Source: Bdellovibrio sp.
GTDB taxonomy: Bacteria; Bdellovibrionota; Bacteriovoracia; Bacteriovoracales; Bacteriovoracaceae
Length of the DNA: 64,000 bases
Direction of reading: 5' to 3'
NCBI GenBank assembly: GCA_016187935.1
Contig: JACPIU010000014.1
Location: 62,001 to 126,000, forward strand
The notes beneath the pieces were generated by a model. It searched no databases. It was not told where the DNA came from and saw only the letters and a list, made by a program, of their open reading frames with translations. Position numbers and translations under genes: made by a program. Shown here one piece after another: positions 2,836-27,597 of this stretch (the stretch's first letter is position 1; the number at the start of each line of letters is the position of its first letter).

Positions 2836-5319
2836 ATGACAATAAGACATTTAGCTCTATGGAGTTGCTTATCCTTATGTGTCTTGTTTCCTCATTACCG
2901 CACTTTCGCCCATCCCCATGGGACACCAGTTCGCGGGAGCATTGTGCTGGATCAAGAATCGCGCTTTTCTCGCAATAAAGGCGGTTATGGATATATCGCT
3001 TCTTCCGAAGCAGAAGCTGTTGCGAATATGAGCTTTGCCTGCACACAACAGAATCAGAATTATTATTTCCAATGTTTTTCCCATGGCCTGAGGTTGCCTG
3101 AATCGTGGTTCGATACTTACACCCCCCAATATTTGCAGCCTATTGTTCTTCAGCGTTTGCGTGAGCATATGGTTGAAAAAATCATTCACGAGCGTGCCGC
3201 TCTCTCGACAACCCGAGGAAATTGGCCGACCTCCTTACCTTCTGCCTGTATGTCGCCTTCATCCGGTTATGATGGAGGAAAGAGTACTTCTCCGGCCGAA
3301 TCTGGGCGTTTACTGGCCTTGCATAACTCTCTTCCCACCACTATTTATTCTCCCGTCCAGTTAACTGCTCTGGGAACGGCGCTGGCCGAGGCCAAAAAAA
3401 GCAATGATCCCGTCAAAGTTGCACGCGCAGAAAGAAACCTGGATCGGGCCAATAAATTTAATTCTTCCGTTAATTCGCTCAGCTCAGGCAATATTGTGCG
3501 CGCTCTGACTCTGCATGATCAATTAAGTCAGGCCAAAAAATGGTTTTGTGCACAAACAACAGATAACCACAGAAATACCTGTATTGACCTCACCAACCAA
3601 ACCGATCGTATCAAAGATAGCTATCCCATTCTTTTTCAAGGCAGCAGCAGTGATGTCGATGCCCGCTTAGGGGCGATTCGCAATACCTTGTATGATGTTC
3701 TGGGGGCCAAATCGGGGTCTGGTTCGGAAGCACAGAGGAGGGCGGCAGGAAAAGCGGCCTATAATTCCCATACTCGCTTTCGCTCCTATAATCTGGATTA
3801 TGATTCCTTTGCTTTTCAAAATTTTGAAGCTGCCATGTCTCAAGCGGTTAAGGAGGCCAAGGATGCTTCCAATAAACCGGAGGGTGATCGTTCTGGTAAG
3901 GAGCGACGTTTGGCCCAGGCCTTCGCCGGGCTAGATCAAGGACTTGCAACCCTAAAAGACAACTACAAAAGAGACATTGAAAGCTCAGGCTTGAGCAATA
4001 TATGCAGTTTAACGCTCAATGATTTTTTCACAAAATATCCCAATGTGGTTCGCCAGGCGATGGCCGATTCGCCACGTGATCAACAGGCCTTGATGAAGTT
4101 AGTATATTGTCAATCAGGCCATTCCCGAAGCTTGGATATGACGCCTCAATGCCATGGAGTCACAAGTACCAATACTGCGGATGCCCGCGTGGTTTCGGTA
4201 AATAGACAGGCCGCCACTTACCCTTTTTTCTCAGCAACGAAATACAGTATTACTTACCCAAACACACCAGTTAATGCTGCTCCCACACTCAGAATGTCGG
4301 TGGATTTTCCCACTTCCATTAGACCGAGAGATAAATTCAACGAGTATCTTGCCCAGATGCAAAAGAATGTTAATGATTTTTATAATTGCTCGGCCGATAC
4401 ATTGAAAGATGCGAGTGGTGCACGGGTTAGTCACATCGGTCCGATCACCACAGGCTTCTTCGCCTTTGGAAATGGTGAGGTGGCCGATCCTGACAATCAA
4501 GAAACTGTCCAACGCAAATGCCCTCCCCATCCGGGAATGCCGAAGGTGAATTTTGAAATAACATTTGTGCCCAAATTCCTTTGTACGCCTTCAGATAAAC
4601 ACGACTGTCAAAAAAACGATTCCATCCCTGAACCCAAAATGGTGGTCCACCAGTGCTATAATGCTGAACTTAAAAAACACGCCACTGATTGCGCTAAGGT
4701 GCGGGAACATGCCCTGAAGGAATGTGGTAAACGTGTCAAGCAAGTTGTGGCCACTGGCATGAGCAATGCTAACGCCGATGCAGTGGAATTCGACGACTAT
4801 CTTACTAATGCCATTTATCCTCTTTCGGCACAAACAATGAGCGTGAGTTTTTGGACGCAAAACCATTGTGCTGAAAGAAAAATCACGACGCCGGTAAGAC
4901 AAGTATCAGAGTGCGCCAGCATCAGCGATGATTGTGATAAAGATGCCTGTATGGCCCAGGCCCTTTGCCGAATGCCACAGATAAAAATAGGGACACGGAC
5001 TTGTTGGACCGAAGATACAATGGCCAAATACTGCGATGGACGTTTGCGCACAGACGGACAGCCTCATCCCGCCAAACCAGCGGGGCATCCTGATTTTAAT
5101 CGTCAAGATGCTGGCAACCTCACTCCCAGCACGACGCTGACCACCTTCGTTCACGAGATTGGCCATGCCATGAGTACGGATGACGAATACCAAGATTCAA
5201 GATATCCTTTCTTGCCACAAGGGGAGCACGATTCCATTTGGAACTCCGGAGGTGGTGACGATGGTCGTATTTACCCCAGGCATATCAATAAAATTCTCGA
5301 ACCTGGAAGTTGCCCATGA
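2836..5319 (+). CDS. secreted metzincin-like zinc metalloprotease homologue, copy 1
   Basis: An 827-residue exported protein. ATG 2836 is preferred over GTG 2821 because GAGGG lies 8 bases upstream and the protein then opens with a clean signal peptide (MTIRHLALWSCLSL). The zinc-binding signature HEIGHAMSTDDEY starts at residue 773, near the C-terminus, and fits HExxH followed by Asp six residues later. The Gly usual in the metzincin helix turn is Ser here, and the expected Met-turn position reads DSIWNS, so activity may be altered. The long Cys-containing N-terminal part is unlike any family I recognise. It is clearly paralogous to the protein at 24463-26691: shared anchors are GYGY..SSEAEA near the N-terminus, an ERAALS/QRAAIS motif, QDAGN before the zinc helix and a C-terminal Cys-Pro. 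The next gene overlaps it by four bases. Exported metalloprotease homologue is likely; substrate unknown. Confidence 0.72.
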   Translation: MTIRHLALWSCLSLCVLFPHYRTFAHPHGTPVRGSIVLDQESRFSRNKGGYGYIASSEAEAVANMSFACTQQNQNYYFQCFSHGLRLPESWFDTYTPQYLQPIVLQRLREHMVEKIIHERAALSTTRGNWPTSLPSACMSPSSGYDGGKSTSPAESGRLLALHNSLPTTIYSPVQLTALGTALAEAKKSNDPVKVARAERNLDRANKFNSSVNSLSSGNIVRALTLHDQLSQAKKWFCAQTTDNHRNTCIDLTNQTDRIKDSYPILFQGSSSDVDARLGAIRNTLYDVLGAKSGSGSEAQRRAAGKAAYNSHTRFRSYNLDYDSFAFQNFEAAMSQAVKEAKDASNKPEGDRSGKERRLAQAFAGLDQGLATLKDNYKRDIESSGLSNICSLTLNDFFTKYPNVVRQAMADSPRDQQALMKLVYCQSGHSRSLDMTPQCHGVTSTNTADARVVSVNRQAATYPFFSATKYSITYPNTPVNAAPTLRMSVDFPTSIRPRDKFNEYLAQMQKNVNDFYNCSADTLKDASGARVSHIGPITTGFFAFGNGEVADPDNQETVQRKCPPHPGMPKVNFEITFVPKFLCTPSDKHDCQKNDSIPEPKMVVHQCYNAELKKHATDCAKVREHALKECGKRVKQVVATGMSNANADAVEFDDYLTNAIYPLSAQTMSVSFWTQNHCAERKITTPVRQVSECASISDDCDKDACMAQALCRMPQIKIGTRTCWTEDTMAKYCDGRLRTDGQPHPAKPAGHPDFNRQDAGNLTPSTTLTTFVHEIGHAMSTDDEYQDSRYPFLPQGEHDSIWNSGGGDDGRIYPRHINKILEPGSCP

Positions 5320-6155
5320 GGAGATCATTTGTGAAACTAATACTTCTAGGTCTCTTCATGTTTTTCGCCAACGGACTTACCGCTGCGGTGGACTTGGGGG
5401 GAAAAGATATTCATATTTCTTTTGTGAAAAATACCAAACGATCGGCCTTCGCCGAAGATAATGAGTCTTTTCAGGTCGATTTTGACCGCAAAGTGACTTG
5501 GGTTAACGGCCCATGGGGGTTGTCACAAAACGCAAACTGTACCAATGAGGCGGGAGAGAAAATTGGTGATTTGAGCGACGCCGAAGTCAAAGTCTTGGCC
5601 CAGGCAGCGATTGAAGCTATTTTATCATTGGAAAAAGACCCGGAGAATACGGCCCCTCAGGCGAGCAGACCTGAAAATGCCCAATCCACCACTCTCAAAG
5701 TGTTGGTTGGAGAAGATATTTATTCTGTTCGGGTGCATACCTCCAATCCGCAATATCAAAAATTTCTCGATGTTTTAGAAACCTATCAGGAAAAATTGCG
5801 CATTCACTCACTCATTCGCATGCAGGGTCAAATGACAAAAAACGGGGATTTAAAAGTTGTCTTTTCATACTTTGGTAAAAAACCCTTTCATCTTATCATT
5901 CCCAAGAAGGCGGGTGAGGCGTTTCGCCTCGGAAATGCGCAGTTGGAATATCTTATTGCTCCAACACGTGAGGAATTTGTACTCAGTTCAAAGTCCAAAC
6001 GTTTGGAGCTAAATTTTAAACTTAAAAAAAATGCAGAAGCATTGGGAAAGCAGATACAATACTCCAATCGTCTTATTCTGCATCATGTGCCCAACGACGC
6101 TGTCAAAGGACAACTTCCCCCTACGGTGCTCAATCTGTGCAGTGATTTGCAGTAA
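5316..6155 (+). CDS. exported partner protein of metzincin cassette 1
   Basis: The ATG overlaps the upstream TGA (ATGA), giving 279 residues with an N-terminal signal peptide (MRRSFVKLILLGLFMFF...). An alternative GTG at 5331 has a better-placed GAGGAG and would still leave a signal peptide. No known domain was recognised. The C-terminal half resembles the protein at 26731-27597: each has G-K-(K/N)-P followed by two beta-strand-like segments, an (A/V)(P/R)T(R/K) motif, a basic segment and a final Cys-containing tail. Because both copies directly follow a metzincin-like gene, the protein is probably a dedicated partner (inhibitor, chaperone or co-secreted subunit). That role is inference from context. 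Confidence 0.72.
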   Translation: MRRSFVKLILLGLFMFFANGLTAAVDLGGKDIHISFVKNTKRSAFAEDNESFQVDFDRKVTWVNGPWGLSQNANCTNEAGEKIGDLSDAEVKVLAQAAIEAILSLEKDPENTAPQASRPENAQSTTLKVLVGEDIYSVRVHTSNPQYQKFLDVLETYQEKLRIHSLIRMQGQMTKNGDLKVVFSYFGKKPFHLIIPKKAGEAFRLGNAQLEYLIAPTREEFVLSSKSKRLELNFKLKKNAEALGKQIQYSNRLILHHVPNDAVKGQLPPTVLNLCSDLQ

Positions 6156-6166
6156 AATTAGCTAAA

Positions 6167-7153
6167 CTAGTGTGCCACCAATTCGGATTTTAACTGCGCA
6201 ATATTGACGAAAGGATAATAGTCTAAATCCTTCTGCGCCTTCTTTTGCGAGAAGTAATGTCCTTTTGCCAGTTGGAGGGCCACAAAGCGAGTCATGGGTG
6301 GGTCCTCTTCAAACCTGCCTTGAAAGGAATAAACTTTTTCAAAGATATGGCCGGCATTATAGGCCAACGAGAACGGAATGCTTTTTTCGATGGGCCCAAC
6401 GCCGATTTCCACAAAAATATCGTTTAAAAATCTCCACAAATTGACAGGAGATTCTTGGCCTAAGAAATATGATTCTCCGGAGATGGGACGGCCTTGCACC
6501 AGTTTTTCTAAGGCCAGAAGATGTGCTTTGGCGGCATTATCCACATGGATGATATCGACTAAATTTTCACCGTTTCCAACTTTCTTCAGCCGGCCTTGGA
6601 TATGCGCCTTAAGCAGTCTTGGAAATAAATTTTTATCGCCGGGACCTAGGATCAGGTGAGGACGCAACGATACAGTTTTGATGGAATCTTTTTTCCGGCC
6701 TTCTTGGATAACATACTTTTCTGCCAGAGCTTTGGTGGCACTGTAGTGATTGAGATACTTCTTGGGATAGGCAACGGTCTCATCAGCACCGCACAGGTCT
6801 TCATGGCCGAAAACAACACTCGGAGAACTGGTAAAAACCAAGTAGCTCACACTTTGCTCTTTCATGGCCTTGATGAGTGTTTGCGTGCCGGTGACATTGG
6901 TTTTGTAAAAATCTTCATAACGCCCAAAAACACCGACTTTCGCGGCAGTATGGATGACGGCATCAACACCGTTTAGAGCTGCCTTGAGCCCGAGCTCATC
7001 GCCCAAATCAACTTGATGGCATTCCACATGCATGGCCTCAAGCTCCGGGTAATGCTGGCGTGACAGAGATGAAACCTTGTGCCCTTCTTTTTGCAACATA
7101 GTGACGATGCGCTTGCCAAGAAATCCACCACCACCTGTTACCAATACTTTCAT
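6167..7153 (-). CDS. oleD: OleD-type 2-alkyl-3-oxoalkanoate reductase
   Basis: A 328-residue extended short-chain dehydrogenase. The nucleotide-binding motif is TGGGGFLG (residues 7-14), TSSPSV marks the catalytic Ser region, and YSATK is the catalytic Tyr-xxx-Lys. In the ole pathway this NADPH-dependent enzyme reduces the 2-alkyl-3-ketoacid made by OleA to the beta-hydroxy acid. Size and position, last gene after oleA-oleB-oleC, match characterised ole clusters. The start has GGAGAGG upstream, and it begins 13 bases after the oleC stop. Family identity as an extended SDR is certain; the OleD assignment rests on context. Confidence 0.9.
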   Translation of the reverse strand: MKVLVTGGGGFLGKRIVTMLQKEGHKVSSLSRQHYPELEAMHVECHQVDLGDELGLKAALNGVDAVIHTAAKVGVFGRYEDFYKTNVTGTQTLIKAMKEQSVSYLVFTSSPSVVFGHEDLCGADETVAYPKKYLNHYSATKALAEKYVIQEGRKKDSIKTVSLRPHLILGPGDKNLFPRLLKAHIQGRLKKVGNGENLVDIIHVDNAAKAHLLALEKLVQGRPISGESYFLGQESPVNLWRFLNDIFVEIGVGPIEKSIPFSLAYNAGHIFEKVYSFQGRFEEDPPMTRFVALQLAKGHYFSQKKAQKDLDYYPFVNIAQLKSELVAH

Positions 7154-7166
7154 TTCATCCTCTCCA

Positions 7167-8864
7167 TTAGTAGATCTTTGAAAATTTTCCGCAAAACTTC
7201 TCGGATAGTTTTTGTCGATCTATTTTTATATTATGTCGAACATCCACCGGCATCTTTTTTACGTACACAAAGTGACTGACCTGACGGGCCTGGGGATTTC
7301 GAGCGGAGAATTCAAACAAGTGCTTTTCAAATTTTTGGGCATCTTTGCGACACAACTTTTTACCATCAGTACGTTCAATCGCTAAAGTTGGAACTCGCTC
7401 TCCCTTCGGATTACGCGCCCAAATCAAGGCACAACGTTGAACCTCTGGATGATCATTGTACGTTGCTTCAACGGTCTCTGTCGATATGAGAGCACCACAA
7501 GCGTCCAATCGATGCTTTTTTCGACCCATAAACCATAAGAAACCATTCTTGTCCAAATACCCGAGGTCTCCCATGCGATGCCAAAATCCATGGGCGGTAT
7601 GAACTCGGGATAATTCTGTCTCTTCGCTTTGGAACAAATACTCGCTGGTGGCAACCGGGCCTTTCACGCAGATTTCACCCGGTTCGCCAGGCAGGAGTGT
7701 GGGAAGCTCTTGAGCTTGTGTGAAGACCTCGTCAGTGATGGGAATAATGGCGATTTCGATGCCCGGAGCAGGCCGTCCGACACAGGTCCCTCGGCCTTCG
7801 AAAATAAGAGTAGAAAATTGCCGGAGTATTTCTTGCCCGCTAATGCAGGCCACAGGTAGGGCCTCGGTGGCACCATAAGGTGTGTAAGTTGTGCCTTGGG
7901 GAAGGAGGGGGGCCCATTCACGATGAAGTCGCAAGCTAACCGGGGCACCAAACAGTGTCAGAAATTTCAAATGAGGAAACACCATTCCATGATGACGGGC
8001 GTGGCGGGCCACCTTTTCCCAAATCGCCGGTGAGCCGGCGGCAAAGGTGGCCTGACTTTGAACTAAATCACGCGCTACGGCTTCAGGATTGCAGCGTGCT
8101 GGGCCTCGTGGGTCAATTTGGGTAATACCACTTTGCATCCCAAGGCAAAGAGTAAACATGGAAAAAAGAGGAAAACCGGGATAGTCGCGATCATGCTCGG
8201 TAAGGCCGAATAGCTCGCGCAAATTTAATGTTTGATGCCAGAAGATGCTATGGGTGTAGGGGACAGCTTTGGGAATCCCTGTGCCCCCAGAGGTGTAGAG
8301 GATGGCGGCCAAGTTGTCATCTTTGGCCCAGGGCAGTTTGGCCACTTCCAAGGGGGACGCTTCCGGAAAATCTTCCAAGCAAGGGAGATCAAGTGCAAAA
8401 GATTTTTTACTGGTAATCGAGAGTGTGAGGGAGGCGAATTCTTCACTATAAAAGCGCGAAAACCAGATCGCGATGGGCTCGGCGATGATAATTTCTGGTC
8501 TTAAAAGTTTTACCGCTTTTAAAAATTCTCCCCTGGGCATGGAGGGATCGATAAAAATAGGAATAATTTGGAGACGAAACAAAGCAAAAATTAGAGGATG
8601 GAAATTAAGCGAGGGACGCAGAAAAATCAGTGCTTTCTGATGAGGGGTAGCACCCAGATTGATCAATGCCGATGTCATCCCGCAGGCCCGATGATAAAGT
8701 TCCGCGAAGGTACATGCTGGTTTGTCTGGAGAGCGATAATCCACCAACGCGACTTTATCCGGATGTTGCAAGGCCCAAAATTCCAGCATTGACCAAACCT
8801 GTTGCTGTTTGTTGGCTTGGAGAAATTGCTGGAAATTATTTTCCAACGAAAAACTGCGATTCAT
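7167..8864 (-). CDS. oleC: OleC-type beta-lactone synthetase (AMP-ligase superfamily)
   Basis: The 565-residue protein has the adenylate-forming enzyme motifs: a P-loop reading YTSGGTGIPKAV (the usual SGSTG carries Gly for Ser here), YGATEALPV at the A5 position, and GDLGYLD near residue 425. The C-terminus, MPVDVRHNIKIDR, matches the RHN.KI segment typical of OleC. Known OleC proteins adenylate the beta-hydroxy acid and cyclise it to a cis-beta-lactone. The start lies inside the end of oleB (29-base overlap), suggesting translational coupling, with only a weak ribosome site. Confidence 0.9.
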   Translation of the reverse strand: MNRSFSLENNFQQFLQANKQQQVWSMLEFWALQHPDKVALVDYRSPDKPACTFAELYHRACGMTSALINLGATPHQKALIFLRPSLNFHPLIFALFRLQIIPIFIDPSMPRGEFLKAVKLLRPEIIIAEPIAIWFSRFYSEEFASLTLSITSKKSFALDLPCLEDFPEASPLEVAKLPWAKDDNLAAILYTSGGTGIPKAVPYTHSIFWHQTLNLRELFGLTEHDRDYPGFPLFSMFTLCLGMQSGITQIDPRGPARCNPEAVARDLVQSQATFAAGSPAIWEKVARHARHHGMVFPHLKFLTLFGAPVSLRLHREWAPLLPQGTTYTPYGATEALPVACISGQEILRQFSTLIFEGRGTCVGRPAPGIEIAIIPITDEVFTQAQELPTLLPGEPGEICVKGPVATSEYLFQSEETELSRVHTAHGFWHRMGDLGYLDKNGFLWFMGRKKHRLDACGALISTETVEATYNDHPEVQRCALIWARNPKGERVPTLAIERTDGKKLCRKDAQKFEKHLFEFSARNPQARQVSHFVYVKKMPVDVRHNIKIDRQKLSEKFCGKFSKIY

Positions 8865-9771
8865 GTGTACGATCCGTGGTTGAATGTTCTGATATCGTTA
8901 AAAAGTCTTTTACCGCTGTGATGACGGCATCGGGAGCATCTTCCAAGACGTAATGGCCGGCATCTTCTAAGTAAAATGTTTTTGCTTTGGGCACCAATTT
9001 TAACCAACGTTCAAAAAAATGACGAGTAAAGCAAAAATCACGCCCACCCCAAATAAATAAAAAAGGTGCCGCAATCTGGGGTATGGAGCGCTCAATAGCA
9101 TTTAAAATTTGGCGAGTGGGGTGGTTAGTTTCCATGGGAATGTCTCGCACAAAAGCATGAACGCCGATTCTATCGCGGTAGCTCCCATAGGGCAAAAGAA
9201 GCCCTTTTTTTACCAGGTGATTCAAAGGACGCGTCACTGCCATGGAGGTTGCCGGCCAGGCAAAAAGATTGAATGCCCGTACCATGATGTTTCCCAGGAT
9301 TGGTAGACGACAGAGGGCTATTTGCCATGGAATGTTGGGGTCAACAAAGGCGGCGGTGTTCATCAAAATGATTTTGTTGATTCCCAGATGATGTTCAGGC
9401 GCCAATGTGGCCACACCTGTTGCGATAGCACCACCCCAGTCATGACCAATCAGCGTGCATTTTTTGATTCCCAGGTGATGAAGGAGTTCAAAAACATTTG
9501 TAATATGTTTTTCAAGCGAGAGTTCTTCATAGGATTGTGGACGATCGGATAAACCCATGCCTAGATTATCGATGGCGATCACCCGGTAATTTGATTTTAA
9601 CTGGGAGATGACTGCGCGATAGTAAAAGGACCAGGTGGGATTGCCATGCAAGGTCACAATGACGTCTCCTTGACCTTCATCTACGTAGGCCAGTCGCTTG
9701 CCGGAGGAGAGTTGGTGAGCATGGATTTGATAAGGAAACAAAATTTTTAGTTCTTGGGGAATGACCAGCAT
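8836..9771 (-). CDS. oleB: OleB-type beta-lactone decarboxylase (haloalkane dehalogenase-like alpha/beta hydrolase)
   Basis: The start at 9771 (311 residues) is chosen because GGAG lies 7 bases upstream; a longer open frame runs into oleA but has no such support. It is an alpha/beta hydrolase with the oxyanion motif HGNPTWS (residues 42-48), the nucleophile elbow GHDWGG with Asp111, and the late catalytic His in DAGHY. An Asp nucleophile with HGNPTSS-like flanks is the haloalkane-dehalogenase type shared by OleB. Known OleB removes CO2 from beta-lactones to leave a cis-olefin. It sits 14 bases after oleA and overlaps oleC. Confidence 0.9.
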   Translation of the reverse strand: MLVIPQELKILFPYQIHAHQLSSGKRLAYVDEGQGDVIVTLHGNPTWSFYYRAVISQLKSNYRVIAIDNLGMGLSDRPQSYEELSLEKHITNVFELLHHLGIKKCTLIGHDWGGAIATGVATLAPEHHLGINKIILMNTAAFVDPNIPWQIALCRLPILGNIMVRAFNLFAWPATSMAVTRPLNHLVKKGLLLPYGSYRDRIGVHAFVRDIPMETNHPTRQILNAIERSIPQIAAPFLFIWGGRDFCFTRHFFERWLKLVPKAKTFYLEDAGHYVLEDAPDAVITAVKDFLTISEHSTTDRTHESQFFVGK

Positions 9772-9785
9772 ATTATCTCCATTTC

Positions 9786-10811
9786 CTACCAAATGATTTC
9801 CAGAAAGGAACAACTTAATCCACTGCCAATACCCAGAAGACAGCATCGATGACCTTTTTGCAGACGACCACTCATGTTTAAATCCCATAAAGTCAAAGGC
9901 AAGGCGACGCTTCCGGTATTCCCAAATTGCGGATAAGTGCGATGCGTGGGGGTATTTTTCAATTCCAAAATATTCATAATTTTTTCTTCGTGGGCCACAC
10001 CCACTTGGTGTCCCAGGGCCCAATCTATATTTCTCCGTTCAAGCCGGGCCTGGTGCAAAAAATTTTGGAAGGTGATGGCCGCCAGTTCACATCCCGCATG
10101 CAGCAGGGCCTCGGAGTCGGTTTTCATATTGAGCGAGTCAGGAGTACCATCGCCTTGACAAAGATGGGCATGGCGTCCTTCCGTCATGGTGATCGAATTT
10201 TTTACCAAGTGAGGTGTGGAAGCAAGGTCCTTATGGGTGAGCACAAGCGCCACTCCGGCCGAGCCAATGGTTAAATTGGCCATAAGGCCTTTCAACTGTT
10301 CTTTGGTTAAATGAGGATTTTGATTAACTTGCTGAATGGTCTGAAATAAAAGTGGTCCGGAATTTTCGCCCGATACAATTAGGGCGGTTTTTATGGCACC
10401 GGCCTCGATCATTTGACCTGCCACTGAGATGGCATTGATGACACTTAAGCAGGCATTGGAGAGATCGAAGGCCATGCATTTAACATCAAGTCCTAAGTTT
10501 CCATGAATGTTCATGGCGGTGGAAGGTTCCAGTTGATCGCGGCAAACCGAGGCATTAATAAGAAGATCTATGGATGGCAGGTGTACTCGTGACAGTAATT
10601 TCTTTGCCGCCGTCGTGGCAATTTCTGAAGGTTTTGTACCGACTGGCCAATGGCCTCTTCGCTTAATTCCGGTAAAGAGTTCCAATCGCCCCACGCTCAC
10701 CTTGAGACGTTGATAGGTGGAGGCGATTTTTTCTTCCAGTTCTTCAGACGAAATGAAATCAGGAGGCAGAACGCACTCAATATCCAGCAGGGCGGTGTGG
10801 TTAAAGTTCAT
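9786..10811 (-). CDS. oleA: OleA-type thiolase-fold head-to-head condensing enzyme
   Basis: The 341-residue thiolase-fold protein matches OleA in length and active-site layout: Cys121 in DLSNACLS, His268 in GHQVG, Asn298 in FGNTGS, and Glu95 in RDQLEPS, the position of the glutamate that deprotonates the second substrate in OleA. Known OleA joins two fatty acyl-CoAs by a non-decarboxylative Claisen condensation to a 2-alkyl-3-ketoacid. KAS III (FabH) is the main alternative, but the oleBCD neighbours and the Glu favour OleA. It overlaps the upstream FAD oxidoreductase gene by 11 bases. Confidence 0.92.
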   Translation of the reverse strand: MNFNHTALLDIECVLPPDFISSEELEEKIASTYQRLKVSVGRLELFTGIKRRGHWPVGTKPSEIATTAAKKLLSRVHLPSIDLLINASVCRDQLEPSTAMNIHGNLGLDVKCMAFDLSNACLSVINAISVAGQMIEAGAIKTALIVSGENSGPLLFQTIQQVNQNPHLTKEQLKGLMANLTIGSAGVALVLTHKDLASTPHLVKNSITMTEGRHAHLCQGDGTPDSLNMKTDSEALLHAGCELAAITFQNFLHQARLERRNIDWALGHQVGVAHEEKIMNILELKNTPTHRTYPQFGNTGSVALPLTLWDLNMSGRLQKGHRCCLLGIGSGLSCSFLEIIW

Positions 10812-21103: not shown

Positions 21104-21583
21104 ATGAATTCAGCAACTCTTGCAACCCTTATGAAAGCGCGTAATCTAACACCCTCCCAAATTTCAGAGAAGGTAGGAGTGAGCCGTCAGGCGCTCTCAA
21201 AATGGTTGAATGGGCAGAAGCATGTACAGATTAGGAGCGATCATTTGCAAAAACTTGCTGAGCTTTTTCACGTATCGATGGAAACTTTTATGAACCCTCT
21301 TCCTGCTCTTGAGAACACTCATGCCCGTGAACTTGAAGCAACTTTGAATTGGGATAGACTCTATCCTTCTGCTTTAGAAATGCTTTTGGCAGTCAAAAAA
21401 TGGGAACCCCAAGCTGTGGCCAGATTAGTTCAAACTTATGGTTTGGTAACTTCTGCTCGAATTGTTGGTGACAGATCAGCACTTTGGGATCGCTATCCTT
21501 ATTATAAAAAATACATCCATCCTGGGATTCGCAAAGTTCTGGATCAGGTGTGGGAGCAACAATGGAACCAGACCTCAAACTAA
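21104..21583 (+). CDS. XRE-type antitoxin/regulator of an AbiEii-like pair
   Basis: A 159-residue protein. Residues about 5-65 form a Cro/C1-type HTH (LTPSQISEKVGVSRQALSKWL). The C-terminal part (residues 75-150) has RLYPSALEMLLAV and ARLVQTYGL, probably the toxin-neutralising region. Its stop overlaps the toxin start by 22 bases, so the two are co-translated, with the antitoxin made first. By analogy with AbiE-type systems it should repress its own promoter in the AT-rich region upstream. It is XRE-type, not the usual AbiEi fold. Confidence 0.78.
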   Translation: MNSATLATLMKARNLTPSQISEKVGVSRQALSKWLNGQKHVQIRSDHLQKLAELFHVSMETFMNPLPALENTHARELEATLNWDRLYPSALEMLLAVKKWEPQAVARLVQTYGLVTSARIVGDRSALWDRYPYYKKYIHPGIRKVLDQVWEQQWNQTSN

Positions 21584-22296
21584 GCAGACAGGTCCTCTCT
21601 GCCCCTTTGAGAAGGGCCATCGAGCACGTTTTCTCACAAAATCTCCAAGGATGTGTTTTGGTAGGGGGCACTGCAATCGCGGGTTATTACGCCGGACATA
21701 GAAAGTCCGATGATATGGATCTTTTTACTAAAGACGCAGCTGCTCAAATTGCCACAATCAAGGCATGCCAGTCACTTACTCAGCTTGGGGCACAGCTCGC
21801 CCCGCAACAGCAGACGCCCAGCTATTACAAGGCAACATGTACATTTGATGGCCATATTTTCACTATCGACATCGTCCTGGATGCCCACCTCCATCAGGTA
21901 GGACACACCATCCGTCTCGAAAATGCAGTGGTGGTGGCCGATCTTTCGACTCTGCTCAAAATGAAGGCGTCGACTCTTATCAGTAGGTGCAGCGAAAAAG
22001 ATCTTTATGACATCAAATGGATTTTAGGCGAGATGCCTGAGGTCACTATCAACGATCTCCTGAAATGGGCCTTGGAGATGGACCCTGGTGCCACACCAGA
22101 ATCCCTTTACACTGTCGTTGCCAGCACGGTCCTCCGAAAGGAAGCTTGTGATTTTTCTCTTTCTTCTGAAATTACTCCAGAGCAGATATACAAAGAACTT
22201 AGGCAATTCAAAAAAGAACTTGCAAAGTCCATTGAGGACGCAATTAATAAAAAACCACTTCCTCCTCTTGGTAAACTTTTTCGCCTGCTAAAGTGA
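21562..22296 (+). CDS. AbiEii/AbiGii-like nucleotidyltransferase toxin
   Basis: A 244-residue protein from ATG 21562 (GGGAG 5 bases upstream; an in-frame GTG lies 12 bases earlier). The nucleotidyltransferase signature is GGTAIAGYY followed by RKSDDMDLF, giving the GG(T/S)...DxD arrangement, and a later KEKD-like motif reads RCSEKDLYDIKWIL. Related AbiEii/MenT proteins transfer nucleotides to tRNA or other targets and block growth, and some give phage defence. It pairs with the upstream XRE antitoxin. The target here is unknown. Confidence 0.83.
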   Translation: MEPDLKLSRQVLSAPLRRAIEHVFSQNLQGCVLVGGTAIAGYYAGHRKSDDMDLFTKDAAAQIATIKACQSLTQLGAQLAPQQQTPSYYKATCTFDGHIFTIDIVLDAHLHQVGHTIRLENAVVVADLSTLLKMKASTLISRCSEKDLYDIKWILGEMPEVTINDLLKWALEMDPGATPESLYTVVASTVLRKEACDFSLSSEITPEQIYKELRQFKKELAKSIEDAINKKPLPPLGKLFRLLK

Positions 22297-22978: not shown

Positions 22979-24250
22979 ATGAAAACAACAATGAAAATTT
23001 TGGCCCTGGCCACTTTTACCGCCACCAGCGCCCTAGCGGCCGATGGAAAATTGGGATGCGACAATGTCCTCGATCTTAACGATTACAAAGGACAAACTTA
23101 TTTAAACTTCATGCAAGAAACCGTGAAGCCGATGATGGACCAATACGCCACTAAAGGTTATCAGTTAAAAGGCGCTGCTGAGGTTAAGAGCGCTCTTCGT
23201 AATGTGAGTTCTAAAGTAAAAAATAAAGCGATCGAAAGCGTGGGTGGTGACGTCAATGCACTCTACCGATTGGCCGGTGAAATCGAAGGCGAGACAGTGA
23301 CGCTTTATGATCTTCCAAACTTAATCGGCGAGCATGCTCCTCGTGGTGCCGATCGTTTTACCTTGTCGACCTTTTTTGGTCTGGTCAGTTGCGGTGGCGT
23401 AGTCATTCAGTATGCCCCAGAAAACTTGGCCTACAATATTCATTACGGCACTGGCGAAAACAAGATGGATGAACGAACTGGTCGCAGTTTTGGTGAGGGA
23501 CCTGTCCGCTCGGCCGACGATGCCTCGGATAAAAATTACCTGCAAGACCTGGAGGAATTTGTCCTGAAGTATGAAGACTCCATGCAGTCCTTCTACAGGA
23601 CTCTGATTAAGGCCCTGGCCAATAGCGACACCTCGGATTTTTCAAAAATCGCGCCTTTCGGCCAAACACTGTTGACTGATTTCTTGGCGGTCTACACTGC
23701 CGAACAGGCCCGCAATCTTATGGACGGCCGTATCAGCTTGCATTGGGATGCCGCTCTTTTGGAAGTAACTTTGCTTGCCGCTTTCCATGCCGGCCAAGAC
23801 GAAATCACCTTGTTCTATAACGATCCTACTCAAAATAATGAATTGGTATTTACCAACAGCGTATACAACCAGGCCCCAGGATGTGAAGGCAGTGTTCGCG
23901 GAAAAGAGCGAAGCGCACGCCTCTATGATTACTGGCAATTTAGTAGAAACCCAGACCCATCAAACTGTCGCCGTAGCGGAATTAATTTGACCAAAGATGC
24001 TTTCCGCACTTTGGGTGAAACCATCACCGAATTCGAGCGTGAGAAACATCCTGAGTTGGTTGAGCGTTTGGAGAATCATTTCGGAGTTGAATCCACTAAA
24101 AATATCTTCAAGTCTCTAAGTCAATTCTTCATCAGCGCCGATGCCAAGTCAAAAGTCGGAACTCGCGAGAGCAACGAATTAGCTGAAGACGTCGCGGCCT
24201 TCTTATTACAAGTTAAACGCGACGCTCGCACCATTACCCGTTCGATCTAA
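22979..24250 (+). CDS. secreted protein of unknown function
   Basis: A 423-residue protein with a classical signal peptide ending at about residue 20 (ALAA followed by DGKLGC). The mature part is mostly helical with a few Cys residues (around residues 26, 140, 301 and 324), and no known domain was recognised. GGGAG lies upstream of the ATG, and the codon use (many frequent codons) suggests good expression. It precedes the second metzincin cassette on the same strand with a 212-bp gap, so co-regulation is possible but not shown. Confidence 0.78.
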   Translation: MKTTMKILALATFTATSALAADGKLGCDNVLDLNDYKGQTYLNFMQETVKPMMDQYATKGYQLKGAAEVKSALRNVSSKVKNKAIESVGGDVNALYRLAGEIEGETVTLYDLPNLIGEHAPRGADRFTLSTFFGLVSCGGVVIQYAPENLAYNIHYGTGENKMDERTGRSFGEGPVRSADDASDKNYLQDLEEFVLKYEDSMQSFYRTLIKALANSDTSDFSKIAPFGQTLLTDFLAVYTAEQARNLMDGRISLHWDAALLEVTLLAAFHAGQDEITLFYNDPTQNNELVFTNSVYNQAPGCEGSVRGKERSARLYDYWQFSRNPDPSNCRRSGINLTKDAFRTLGETITEFEREKHPELVERLENHFGVESTKNIFKSLSQFFISADAKSKVGTRESNELAEDVAAFLLQVKRDARTITRSI

Positions 24251-24462
24251 AAATTAAAAAAGTCTCTGATCTGAAAAAGAGTAACAGATAATCGGCTTTG
24301 CCATAGGACGGCCGGAAGCCTGACAGCACTATATGCCACAAAAAAAATCTTCTAAATACGTAAGCTACTGAATTCATGAGGGCAAAATTTACATCTAGGA
24401 TAAATGGACAAATGTTCATTACAATATTTATGGGGTATCGAGCAAGATTGGGTGAGTTCTTG

Positions 24463-26691
24463 ATGCAAAAATTTGTAATAGTAACCTTTCTGTTGCGTTC
24501 ATGGGGACTTCCTTTATATTTTTTTTGTATTTCGCCAATAGTCCATGCTCATTCCGACAGTGAGCCGCCAGTGGATTTTGTTCCGGGAATTCCCAATGGT
24601 GTCGAGCAAAATAGGGCCGGATATGGGTGGCTTAATGCCTCAAGCGAAGCTGAGGCGGATTCGCTCTTTCGACAGGAATGTCCGAGGCCCGATGCCTCGG
24701 GAAATGTTCCCATTTGCATCCCTAGGAATTCAGTATTAGAAACGGCATATCGTCTTGCAGACAATAATTTAGAGCTTGCGTTCACACGCATGGCCCAGGA
24801 AAATGCCTATGAGTATCTTATTTTACAAAGGGCCGCTATTTCACCAGGACAGCCTGCTTGGGATTCTCCTACTTGCCTGGCGTCCAATCCAAAACTGGCA
24901 AAAATGCGAGACGATCTCAACGTCATTAAAAGTAAAAATGGGATGGAGCTTAATGCCTTTATCAGGGAACTTGGTACCAAGATAAAGGCCATTACCGACC
25001 GACCGGAAACTTCCTGGACACCCGATGAACGCACCCAACTTGCAGAAATGAAAAGACAGCATCTTTTGGCGATTAAGTTTCGGGCGGTCAAAGAATCAAC
25101 GCGCACAGATCGCATGGCACAGGCCTTGCTCGTTGATAAGCAATTGGGCTTGGCCCAAAACAGGAGTTGTGGTTCCGTCGGGATTCCGCGTAAATGTATG
25201 AGTATTAAAAGAAATCGCGATAGAATTCGACAGGCCTTTCCATCGGTTTTTGCCGGTGCTTTGAATGAGCTCGAGGCCTTTGCCAATGATGATCAGAGGC
25301 GAAAGTGGGAGCAAAAAGAGGTCACTGCGGAGTTGGCAGGACTGGTCCGCTGTGGCACCACCCCTTTTTCTCGTTTTGAAAAATCAATCTATCAGATGAT
25401 GGGCCACAACGGTGCTCCCAACCCCATTCCCGGCGCTGGTACTGGCTCGGGTACAGGTACGGGTTATGGATGTGCGAGTACCGAGCAAAACACCGCCGCC
25501 ATCGCTCGTGGGCAGAGCATTGTTGCCACTGCTTTTGCCAAAGATGATGGCTATCCCAAAATTGTTTCTCAAAACAGTGATGGCAAAGGTGCGTACACTT
25601 TGGCGCGAGAAGCGGCCTTTGATGCCGTTCGTGGTGTGGGTACACCTCCTGGTTCCCCAGTTGATAGTCGAATGAAGAATGCTTATGATGATTTTTCTCA
25701 GGCGGCCCGTCAGATGCTCCATGTCCAGGAACTGACTGCCGCTAATCAAATGGGTAATTTGTGTTCGCGTAATAGTCTGAAGGCCATTGCTCAATTTCAA
25801 CCACAGGCGATTCGACAAACCATCTTGGATCAGAACGAACCAGGTTCCCGCGAAGGATTGACCAGACTCATGTGTAAAAATGGCATTATGGAAAGGTTTC
25901 AGGCCAATGACCAAAGCTTGGATTGTAGTGGCGTTTCCGGAGACCCCTCTCAGGCGAATGGGATGACGGTAAATCGCACGAATTATAACCTCCCTTTTTC
26001 CAGTAATTCGAACTATAAGCTAAAAACTCTGCCGGATGGATCATTGGAAGTTTCTACCAAGATCAACTATCGTTTTTCCTATGATCCCTCGATTGATCCT
26101 TCTTCGGCATCCTATGCTGGTGATGCCAATGTACCGGAAGCTGCACGAAAAAATGAGGAACAACAAAAAAACGATTTCAAGAACAATACCAGCTCATGGG
26201 TGTCCCAGTCCACGGCATGGTATGATAGTATGACCAGCAAGGTCTCCGATCCTAAAGTGAAATTTAGAATTGAGCAATGCTTGGAATGCCCGGATTCGGA
26301 TACTCCACGAGTCTCGGTTTCGCCATGCTATCGGCGGGTCAAGCCAAGAAATTTTGATACGGATTTCCCACCTCTTACTCCAGGTGGTCCTTCACGTTTT
26401 GATAAGCATCGTTGCTGGTATAAGAATGGAGTTAATAAATCACCTAATTGGCAGGATGCAGGGAACTTTACCACGACAATGCCGCCAAGGACCATTATGC
26501 ATGAAACCGGACACAACCTGGGGTTACCAGATGAATATACTGCCGACTATTACCCGGCCACGCCATTAGGCGAAAATGGTGCTCTAAGTTGCAATTCTAC
26601 CATGGCCAGTTCTAATGGTAGTTGCCATACTTTGTATGCAAGACATTTGCTACAAATAACCAGACCATCGCGAGTTTGCCCTAGACCATAA
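24463..26691 (+). CDS. secreted metzincin-like zinc metalloprotease homologue, copy 2
   Basis: A 742-residue exported protein starting at ATG 24463 (GGTGAG 6 bases upstream; a longer frame to 24376 places a hydrophilic stretch before the signal peptide). The zinc helix HETGHNLGLPDEY begins at residue 680 and fits the metzincin consensus HExxHxxGxxD exactly, with Asp as third ligand. The downstream CNSTMASS is a plausible Met-turn. A short Gly-Thr-Ser-rich linker lies near residue 325. It is paralogous to the 2836-5319 protein along much of its length, with the same partner gene downstream. This copy has the better-preserved active site. Substrate unknown. Confidence 0.78.
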   Translation: MQKFVIVTFLLRSWGLPLYFFCISPIVHAHSDSEPPVDFVPGIPNGVEQNRAGYGWLNASSEAEADSLFRQECPRPDASGNVPICIPRNSVLETAYRLADNNLELAFTRMAQENAYEYLILQRAAISPGQPAWDSPTCLASNPKLAKMRDDLNVIKSKNGMELNAFIRELGTKIKAITDRPETSWTPDERTQLAEMKRQHLLAIKFRAVKESTRTDRMAQALLVDKQLGLAQNRSCGSVGIPRKCMSIKRNRDRIRQAFPSVFAGALNELEAFANDDQRRKWEQKEVTAELAGLVRCGTTPFSRFEKSIYQMMGHNGAPNPIPGAGTGSGTGTGYGCASTEQNTAAIARGQSIVATAFAKDDGYPKIVSQNSDGKGAYTLAREAAFDAVRGVGTPPGSPVDSRMKNAYDDFSQAARQMLHVQELTAANQMGNLCSRNSLKAIAQFQPQAIRQTILDQNEPGSREGLTRLMCKNGIMERFQANDQSLDCSGVSGDPSQANGMTVNRTNYNLPFSSNSNYKLKTLPDGSLEVSTKINYRFSYDPSIDPSSASYAGDANVPEAARKNEEQQKNDFKNNTSSWVSQSTAWYDSMTSKVSDPKVKFRIEQCLECPDSDTPRVSVSPCYRRVKPRNFDTDFPPLTPGGPSRFDKHRCWYKNGVNKSPNWQDAGNFTTTMPPRTIMHETGHNLGLPDEYTADYYPATPLGENGALSCNSTMASSNGSCHTLYARHLLQITRPSRVCPRP

Positions 26692-26730: not shown

Positions 26731-27597
26731 ATGTCTGTTCAAAAAATAATCCGAAAAAGTTTTATCATTTTCTGTGGTATTTTTCAGTTCATTGGCTTGG
26801 CCGAAGCAAAAATGATCTTGGTACCGGCCAAAATTGATTTCAACAAAACTATGGCCGGTTTTGTTTATTCCCATACGGAGCGATCGGTGAATGGGAAGAA
26901 AATCGGATTATCCGCACGACTGATGCCCAATGGATATTTGTATGTCAGTGGAATTTACATCGGGGAAACCTTTGATGCCTGTTCGGGGCGAGGTGGTAAT
27001 GCTGCGGTTGTTTTGGATGTTGCCCAGAGAGAAAATCTGATGAAAATGGCCTTGCAAAGTTATAATGAAAATCAACAATTATCATCAAAAGAGGAGAGAG
27101 GAGCTTACGAGACGGGCCCGCAGTTGTCGGTTGAGTTAGGTCAAGACATGGGGAATACGACTCTGAACAATATCGGTACACAAACAGATCTTTTTCAAAA
27201 GGAATTGGCGACACTCATGCAGAAAGTGTTCGATGATGGGAGATCGCGAACTCACGGATTGGAAATTTCACTCGCTTTGAAAAAGAATCACCTCCAGTTT
27301 ACGCTCACGAATATCGGTAAAAACCCAGCTGTGATCATGCTGCCTGAAGATGCTTCAACCCATTTTTTCTATCGAAAAACGGAAGATGAGTTGGTAGGTC
27401 TCCAATATGCAGTTCGACCCACCAAGAGAGTTATCAAACTCCAACCGAAGAAAAACTTCAGAGTTATGCTCATTAAGCCGACGACAGGGAATTTGGATAA
27501 AATTGTTTTTGTCTATGACAATATGGCCGATGTCTATCATGATGATCCCGCAATGGTGTCTTCGCCTAAAGTCCAAATTTGTGCCGGCCTAAAGTGA
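26731..27597 (+). CDS. exported partner protein of metzincin cassette 2
   Basis: A 288-residue protein with an N-terminal signal peptide (SFIIFCGIFQFIGLAEA), beginning 39 bases after the metzincin gene. No known domain was recognised. Its C-terminal third aligns by eye with the partner in cassette 1: GKNPAVIMLP against GKKPFHLIIP, then YAVRPTKRVIKL against YLIAPTREEFVL, and a Cys-containing tail. The mature protein looks beta-rich. Conserved pairing suggests it binds, folds or inhibits the protease; this is inference. Confidence 0.75.
   Translation: MSVQKIIRKSFIIFCGIFQFIGLAEAKMILVPAKIDFNKTMAGFVYSHTERSVNGKKIGLSARLMPNGYLYVSGIYIGETFDACSGRGGNAAVVLDVAQRENLMKMALQSYNENQQLSSKEERGAYETGPQLSVELGQDMGNTTLNNIGTQTDLFQKELATLMQKVFDDGRSRTHGLEISLALKKNHLQFTLTNIGKNPAVIMLPEDASTHFFYRKTEDELVGLQYAVRPTKRVIKLQPKKNFRVMLIKPTTGNLDKIVFVYDNMADVYHDDPAMVSSPKVQICAGLK

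Follow-up and report, generated by a model that had tools for sequence, protein, structure and literature searches.

Recurring pairs of a secreted metzincin-like protease and an exported partner protein in Bdellovibrio sp. and its relatives

Two protease-partner cassettes in the window

The window, a 64,000-nucleotide stretch of Bdellovibrio sp. (assembly GCA_016187935.1, contig JACPIU010000014.1, positions 62,001 to 126,000), carries two cassettes, A and B, each with a gene for a large exported metzincin-like protein and, downstream of it on the same strand, a gene for a smaller exported partner. The features, in window coordinates, are as follows.

2836-5319, + strand: cassette A protease, exported metzincin-like protein of 827 aa, ATG at 2836, ORF open from a GTG at 2821
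5152-5190, + strand: cassette A zinc site, HEIGHAMSTDDEY, located by alignment; the motif glycine is replaced by serine and the Met-turn is SIW, not SxM
5316-6155, + strand: cassette A partner, exported, 279 aa, with a predicted Mago-like domain and a mainly beta C-terminal domain
24463-26691, + strand: cassette B protease, exported metzincin-like protein of 742 aa (771 aa from the first ATG, at 24376)
26500-26538, + strand: cassette B zinc site, HETGHNLGLPDEY, located by alignment; Met-turn STM about 20 residues further on
26731-27597, + strand: cassette B partner, exported, 288 aa, after a gap of 39 bases

The zinc site of the cassette A protease was found to lie near its C-terminus, and the last residue is cysteine; its signal peptide reads ...RTFA before the predicted cleavage and HPHG after it, and the ATG of the partner overlaps the protease stop as ATGA (5316-5319). 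A preliminary description of this DNA had claimed two paralogous cassettes, and the ORFs, lengths and motifs were found to be as claimed. BLASTP aligned the last 79 aa of the two proteases (38%, E=2e-10), with further, weaker matches N-terminal, at GYGxxxSSEAEA, and mid-protein, and it also matched the two partners (E=5e-4, 20% identity). The partners also have profile similarity; their shared anchors had been placed in the C-terminal halves, and this similarity is real but spans the whole partner. As six more paired copies were found in the same genome, and the alignments held invariant columns (29 for the proteases, 5 for the partners), the kinship of A and B goes beyond chance.

Copies in the genome and pairing across the phylum

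Both window cassettes are real, but they are not the only two: searches with both proteins, together with reading of the flanks, revealed at least eight protease-partner cassettes in the genome of origin (4.4 Mb, 99% complete), with all eight of the long paralogues paired.

Own-genome cassettes: A and B (window), C (C1), D (C34), E (C7), F (C9), G (C8) and H (C15)

The partner had been described as directly following the protease, which holds for A and B; it was found downstream in six of the cassettes but upstream in D and E, and upstream also at L051, L055, L057, L061, L158 and L159, adjacency being kept despite these order flips. A second copy of the partner lies 1.6 kb from cassette F, and a ninth relative in this genome (L020; 245 aa, with little beyond the catalytic region) stands alone. 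Extra partner paralogues were also observed near a cassette with no second protease (L017, 6457-7239; L060, 1926-2675).

At thresholds chosen for strong matches, proteases of the present kind (type I) were found in nine of 129 genomes of the family, of which eight held both genes, one the protease only and none the partner only, and the partners in these 129 genomes nearly always adjoined a protease. With a laxer threshold across 369 genomes of the phylum, more partners were found in G070, G330 and G359, each beside a metzincin, while that in G337 sits at a contig end. A contig scan with the single B protease sequence gave no match.

The large protein does not routinely occur without its partner, which was adjacent in about 26 of the 31 evaluable type I proteases (the sampled genomes being partly incomplete, the contig-end copies L177, L178, L179 and L183 only partly evaluable, and several of the profiles made from loci later scored with them). 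The five evaluable exceptions were three full-length type I proteases without a partner (L056, L157 and L181), L160, whose genome has a partner on another of its contigs (L161), and L162. In G067, a single type I protease and a single partner are both kept, on separate contigs. L179 was dropped as a solo copy, as it lies at a contig end; the 165-aa ORF upstream of it is not a partner. Short metzincins of 245-300 aa were found without a partner (e.g. L020, L070, L090 and L092), and two short proteases lacking the large helical region described below were found with one (L180, 274 aa; L182, 377 aa).

The pair had also been proposed to be co-evolving, and the protease and partner trees did correlate, both over 22 pairs (r=0.94, Mantel p=2e-4) and over the eight pairs of the genome of origin (r=0.92, exact p=0.0015); cassette duplication alone would yield part of this correlation. 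Aside from the pair itself, the genes common to different cassette loci were essentially those of orthologous loci, and this near-absence of other genes shared by non-orthologous cassettes, together with the changes of gene order, points to selection for the pair. Partner divergence outpaced that of the protease (slope 1.27), as in cassette G, where the partner was 50-58% identical to its orthologues and the protease 62-77%. Such faster divergence is common for protease inhibitors.

The protease

The zinc site common to the large proteins is HExxHxx[GS]xxD, with the zinc residues H, E and H present in all 28 aligned type I members and the third ligand an Asp in 27 of them (Glu in L058). Serine replaces the motif glycine in A and a few other members, and the Met-turn SxM keeps its Met in 25 of the 28, the exceptions being window A (Trp), L164 (Arg) and L157 (Leu). 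About nine cysteines are conserved (B positions 102, 114, 167, 463, 500, 517, 651, 680 and 768 being nearly or fully invariant). The AlphaFold2 model of the B protease (pLDDT 79.5, pTM 0.80; 771-aa numbering) has a helical region at about 90-510 and a mixed C-terminal catalytic domain at about 516-771, ordered as strands, a helix (594-620), strands, the zinc helix (704-714) and a C-terminal helix (755-767), a predicted order of elements that would fit a metzincin. The motif, the Met-turn and this predicted order thus speak for assignment to the metzincins, as first made in the preliminary description, but a whole-chain Foldseek search with the B protease, in which the helical region dominated, gave no structural match at E<=0.001.

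With signal peptides called by a simple hydrophobicity script and by eye, histidine was the first residue after the predicted signal-peptidase site in 24 of the 26 members with an aligned N-terminus, as well as in L163 and L183 and in the upstream reading frame of L064, and this mature N-terminal histidine was absent from the solo proteins L056, L181 and L162. An N-terminal histidine, as predicted for the type I proteases, is likewise found in histidine-brace proteins. The type I relative in L162 (3342-4826), which has no partner, has its first zinc histidine replaced (LEEVGH) and is, from its sequence, probably catalytically dead. In L064 (4215-5931), a type I protease is split over two overlapping frames, representing a frameshift or a sequencing error.

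The partner

An AlphaFold2 model of the partner made from 29 members (pLDDT 87.6, pTM 0.81) shows strands-helix-strands-helix followed by a mainly beta C-terminal domain. By Foldseek, the first domain matched Mago nashi (PDB 1p27; E=1.5e-5, prob 1.00, TM 0.56 by target length, 13% identity), which has the same order of strands and helices. Mago is a component of the eukaryotic exon junction complex, and we take the likeness of the modelled domain to be one of fold only, not of homology. Foldseek matches to MHC class I were rejected (TM about 0.17). No protease inhibitor came up among the Foldseek matches of the partner, and none was reported by the tools used here to have the predicted fold of the partner's first domain.

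Partners have a cleavable-type signal with no evident membrane anchor and, by inspection, no lipobox. Cys77 and Cys277, otherwise nearly invariant, are both lacking in L180 and L182, a joint loss as expected if the two form a disulfide. The lack of conservation among mature N-termini speaks against insertion of the N-terminus in the manner of AprI or TIMP.

A second, wider group of metzincins

Within the family, 16 of 48 genera carry a second group (type II; zinc site HEVLHLLGLxDEY), which was also found elsewhere in the phylum, in other families, with relatives in Bacteriovoracaceae, Halobacteriovoraceae and Bdellovibrionales. Long type II members almost always have an exported partner of about 200 aa, tandem type II proteases often stand two to a single partner, some loci have extra partners, and short catalytic-only metzincins are usually solo. 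The match between type I and type II protease profiles was confined to the surroundings of the zinc site, while the partners of the two types, possible homologues, matched by hhalign in register over the Mago-like domain (E=2.9e-4, probability 41%). One locus of G002 (L055, 1721-4473 and 4477-7775) carries two pairs tail to tail, one of type II and one of type I.

Relation to known families and systems

No family in Pfam, NCBIfam or PADLOC was found above cut-off for protease or partner, in agreement with the earlier view of a two-component system outside known families, and a PDB sequence search did not exceed its cut-off either, the only matches being sub-threshold ones at the zinc site. The best score among peptidase profiles was that of TIGR03296 (E=3.6e-6, 27.1 bits against a cut-off of 110.8), and matches of the proteases to M7 and M6 stayed under the Pfam cut-offs. 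Snapalysin (M7) and the M6 peptidases have a like zinc site, HExxHxxGxxD, but the match is limited to that region, and the present proteases fall below every curated cut-off and have a large helical region. The partner showed no match to the snapalysin inhibitor (PDB 4hx3), nor to any metallopeptidase inhibitor family in the Pfam, NCBIfam and PDB sequence searches. Emfourin, an inhibitor of M4 proteases, was also considered; Pfam gave no such family for the scanned proteins.

Secreted metzincins with a partner gene alongside are known from Mep72-BamI and AprA-AprI, as in the present cassettes. The Mep72 and BamI genes of Pseudomonas aeruginosa are adjacent, and BamI, which complexes Mep72, relieves the toxicity of this protease in E. 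coli (PMC4334185); AprA-AprI is a further adjacent metzincin-partner precedent discussed there. BamI is described as partly unfolded, whereas the present partner is confidently predicted as a two-domain protein, and the NCBIfam Mep72 model gave no significant match (best E=0.17, to the solo L020 only). Mtz-Tim of Listeria and related Firmicutes likewise consists of an adjacent secreted metzincin and second exported protein, consistently paired (PMC8235301), but Tim, which the metzincin cleaves, is predicted to be TIMP-like and in Listeria is a lipoprotein (PMC8235301), unlike the present partners with their Mago-like first domain and no lipobox. The same study associates Mtz-Tim with mobile elements, phages among them (PMC8235301); the B protease had no tblastn match in phage and plasmid collections, and so there is no evidence here for a mobile element. 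The prey-lytic protease Bd2269 of Bdellovibrio is a subtilase and does not belong to the present metzincin family (PMC12546842). The cassettes would thus be of a known kind of arrangement (a metzincin and an adjacent inhibitor), with neither side matching a known family above cut-off.

Possible roles of the partner

With moderate confidence, amounting to an even call, we infer that each cassette encodes a secreted metzincin-type zinc endopeptidase and a dedicated exported partner that would bind it as inhibitor or escort. The protease would pass the inner membrane by its Sec-type signal peptide, loss of which would expose the N-terminal histidine, and the mature protein would comprise a large Cys-rich helical region and then the C-terminal catalytic domain. 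The co-made partner would most likely bind it in the periplasm, keeping it inactive or escorting it until outside the cell, and such restraint would spare the envelope of a predator with many such proteases. In their working, the cassettes may on our best reading resemble AprA-AprI or Mep72-BamI, to which no sequence relation was detected.

This reading draws on the pairing, the export signals, the co-divergence, the faster evolution of the partner, the missing partner beside a broken zinc site, the adjacency kept through order flips, the retention of both genes in G067 and the frequent sharing of one partner by tandem type II proteases, as well as on the precedents of Mep72-BamI (tested), AprA-AprI and Mtz-Tim. 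The solo short metzincins and the solo full-length L056, L157 and L181 argue against both inhibitor and escort; inhibition in particular is disfavoured by a partner fold unlinked to protease inhibitors, and an inhibitor could be needless if the helical region by itself imposed zymogen latency.

A protease-specific foldase or secretion chaperone, serving folding, disulfides or outer-membrane passage, would not need to inhibit the mature enzyme, and the conserved cysteines and large helical region of the protease would suit such a partner, as would the near-strict pairing of long proteases where many catalytic-only short ones are solo, and the service of tandem proteases by a single partner. We nevertheless consider it unlikely, as partners also stand beside the short L180 and L182 proteases, their signal is of the cleavable type with no evident anchor, and full-length proteases do occur solo. 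Just as improbable is a partner that acts as permanent subunit or as targeting factor, conferring substrate or surface specificity on an active extracellular complex: export of both proteins, the two-domain partner with its mainly beta C-terminal domain and the fast divergence of partners are consistent with it, but the stoichiometry is not fixed, with type II proteases often two per partner and extra partners at some loci. That adjacency is merely inherited through cassette duplication, the products being functionally unlinked, would by itself give matching trees but is highly improbable given the order flips, the occurrence of pairs in several of the phylum's families and the separate retention in G067.

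The cassettes form a recurring, compact and co-diverging protease-partner set, suited to pair-by-pair expression and assay. Should the partner prove inhibitory, metzincin inhibitors would gain a new fold class, and its many natural cognate pairs would serve studies of specificity; as a foldase or subunit, the partner would be a new kind of secretion partner. Predatory bacteria of the Bdellovibrionota carry many secreted hydrolases, and to our knowledge how they avoid self-damage is largely untested. A Bdellovibrionota-wide metzincin arsenal for prey digestion, in which cognate partners of Mago-like fold would restrain the proteases and the mature N-terminal histidine would chelate the catalytic zinc until release, is a distinctly doubtful proposal, and we know of no description of this latency mode for metzincins.

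Neighbouring genes in the window

Directly upstream of cassette B, an exported 423-aa protein is encoded (22979-24250) that has no Pfam match; none was seen at the other cassettes. An AbiEii-like nucleotidyltransferase (21550-22296; Pfam E=2e-8) adjoins a 159-aa ORF (21104-21583), and the two (21104-22296) are a possible type IV toxin-antitoxin pair. On the - strand, at 6167-10811, four overlapping or adjacent genes were annotated as 3Beta_HSD, AMP-binding, alpha/beta hydrolase and ketoacyl-synthase III/thiolase-like, which is presumably the make-up of an OleABCD olefin cluster.
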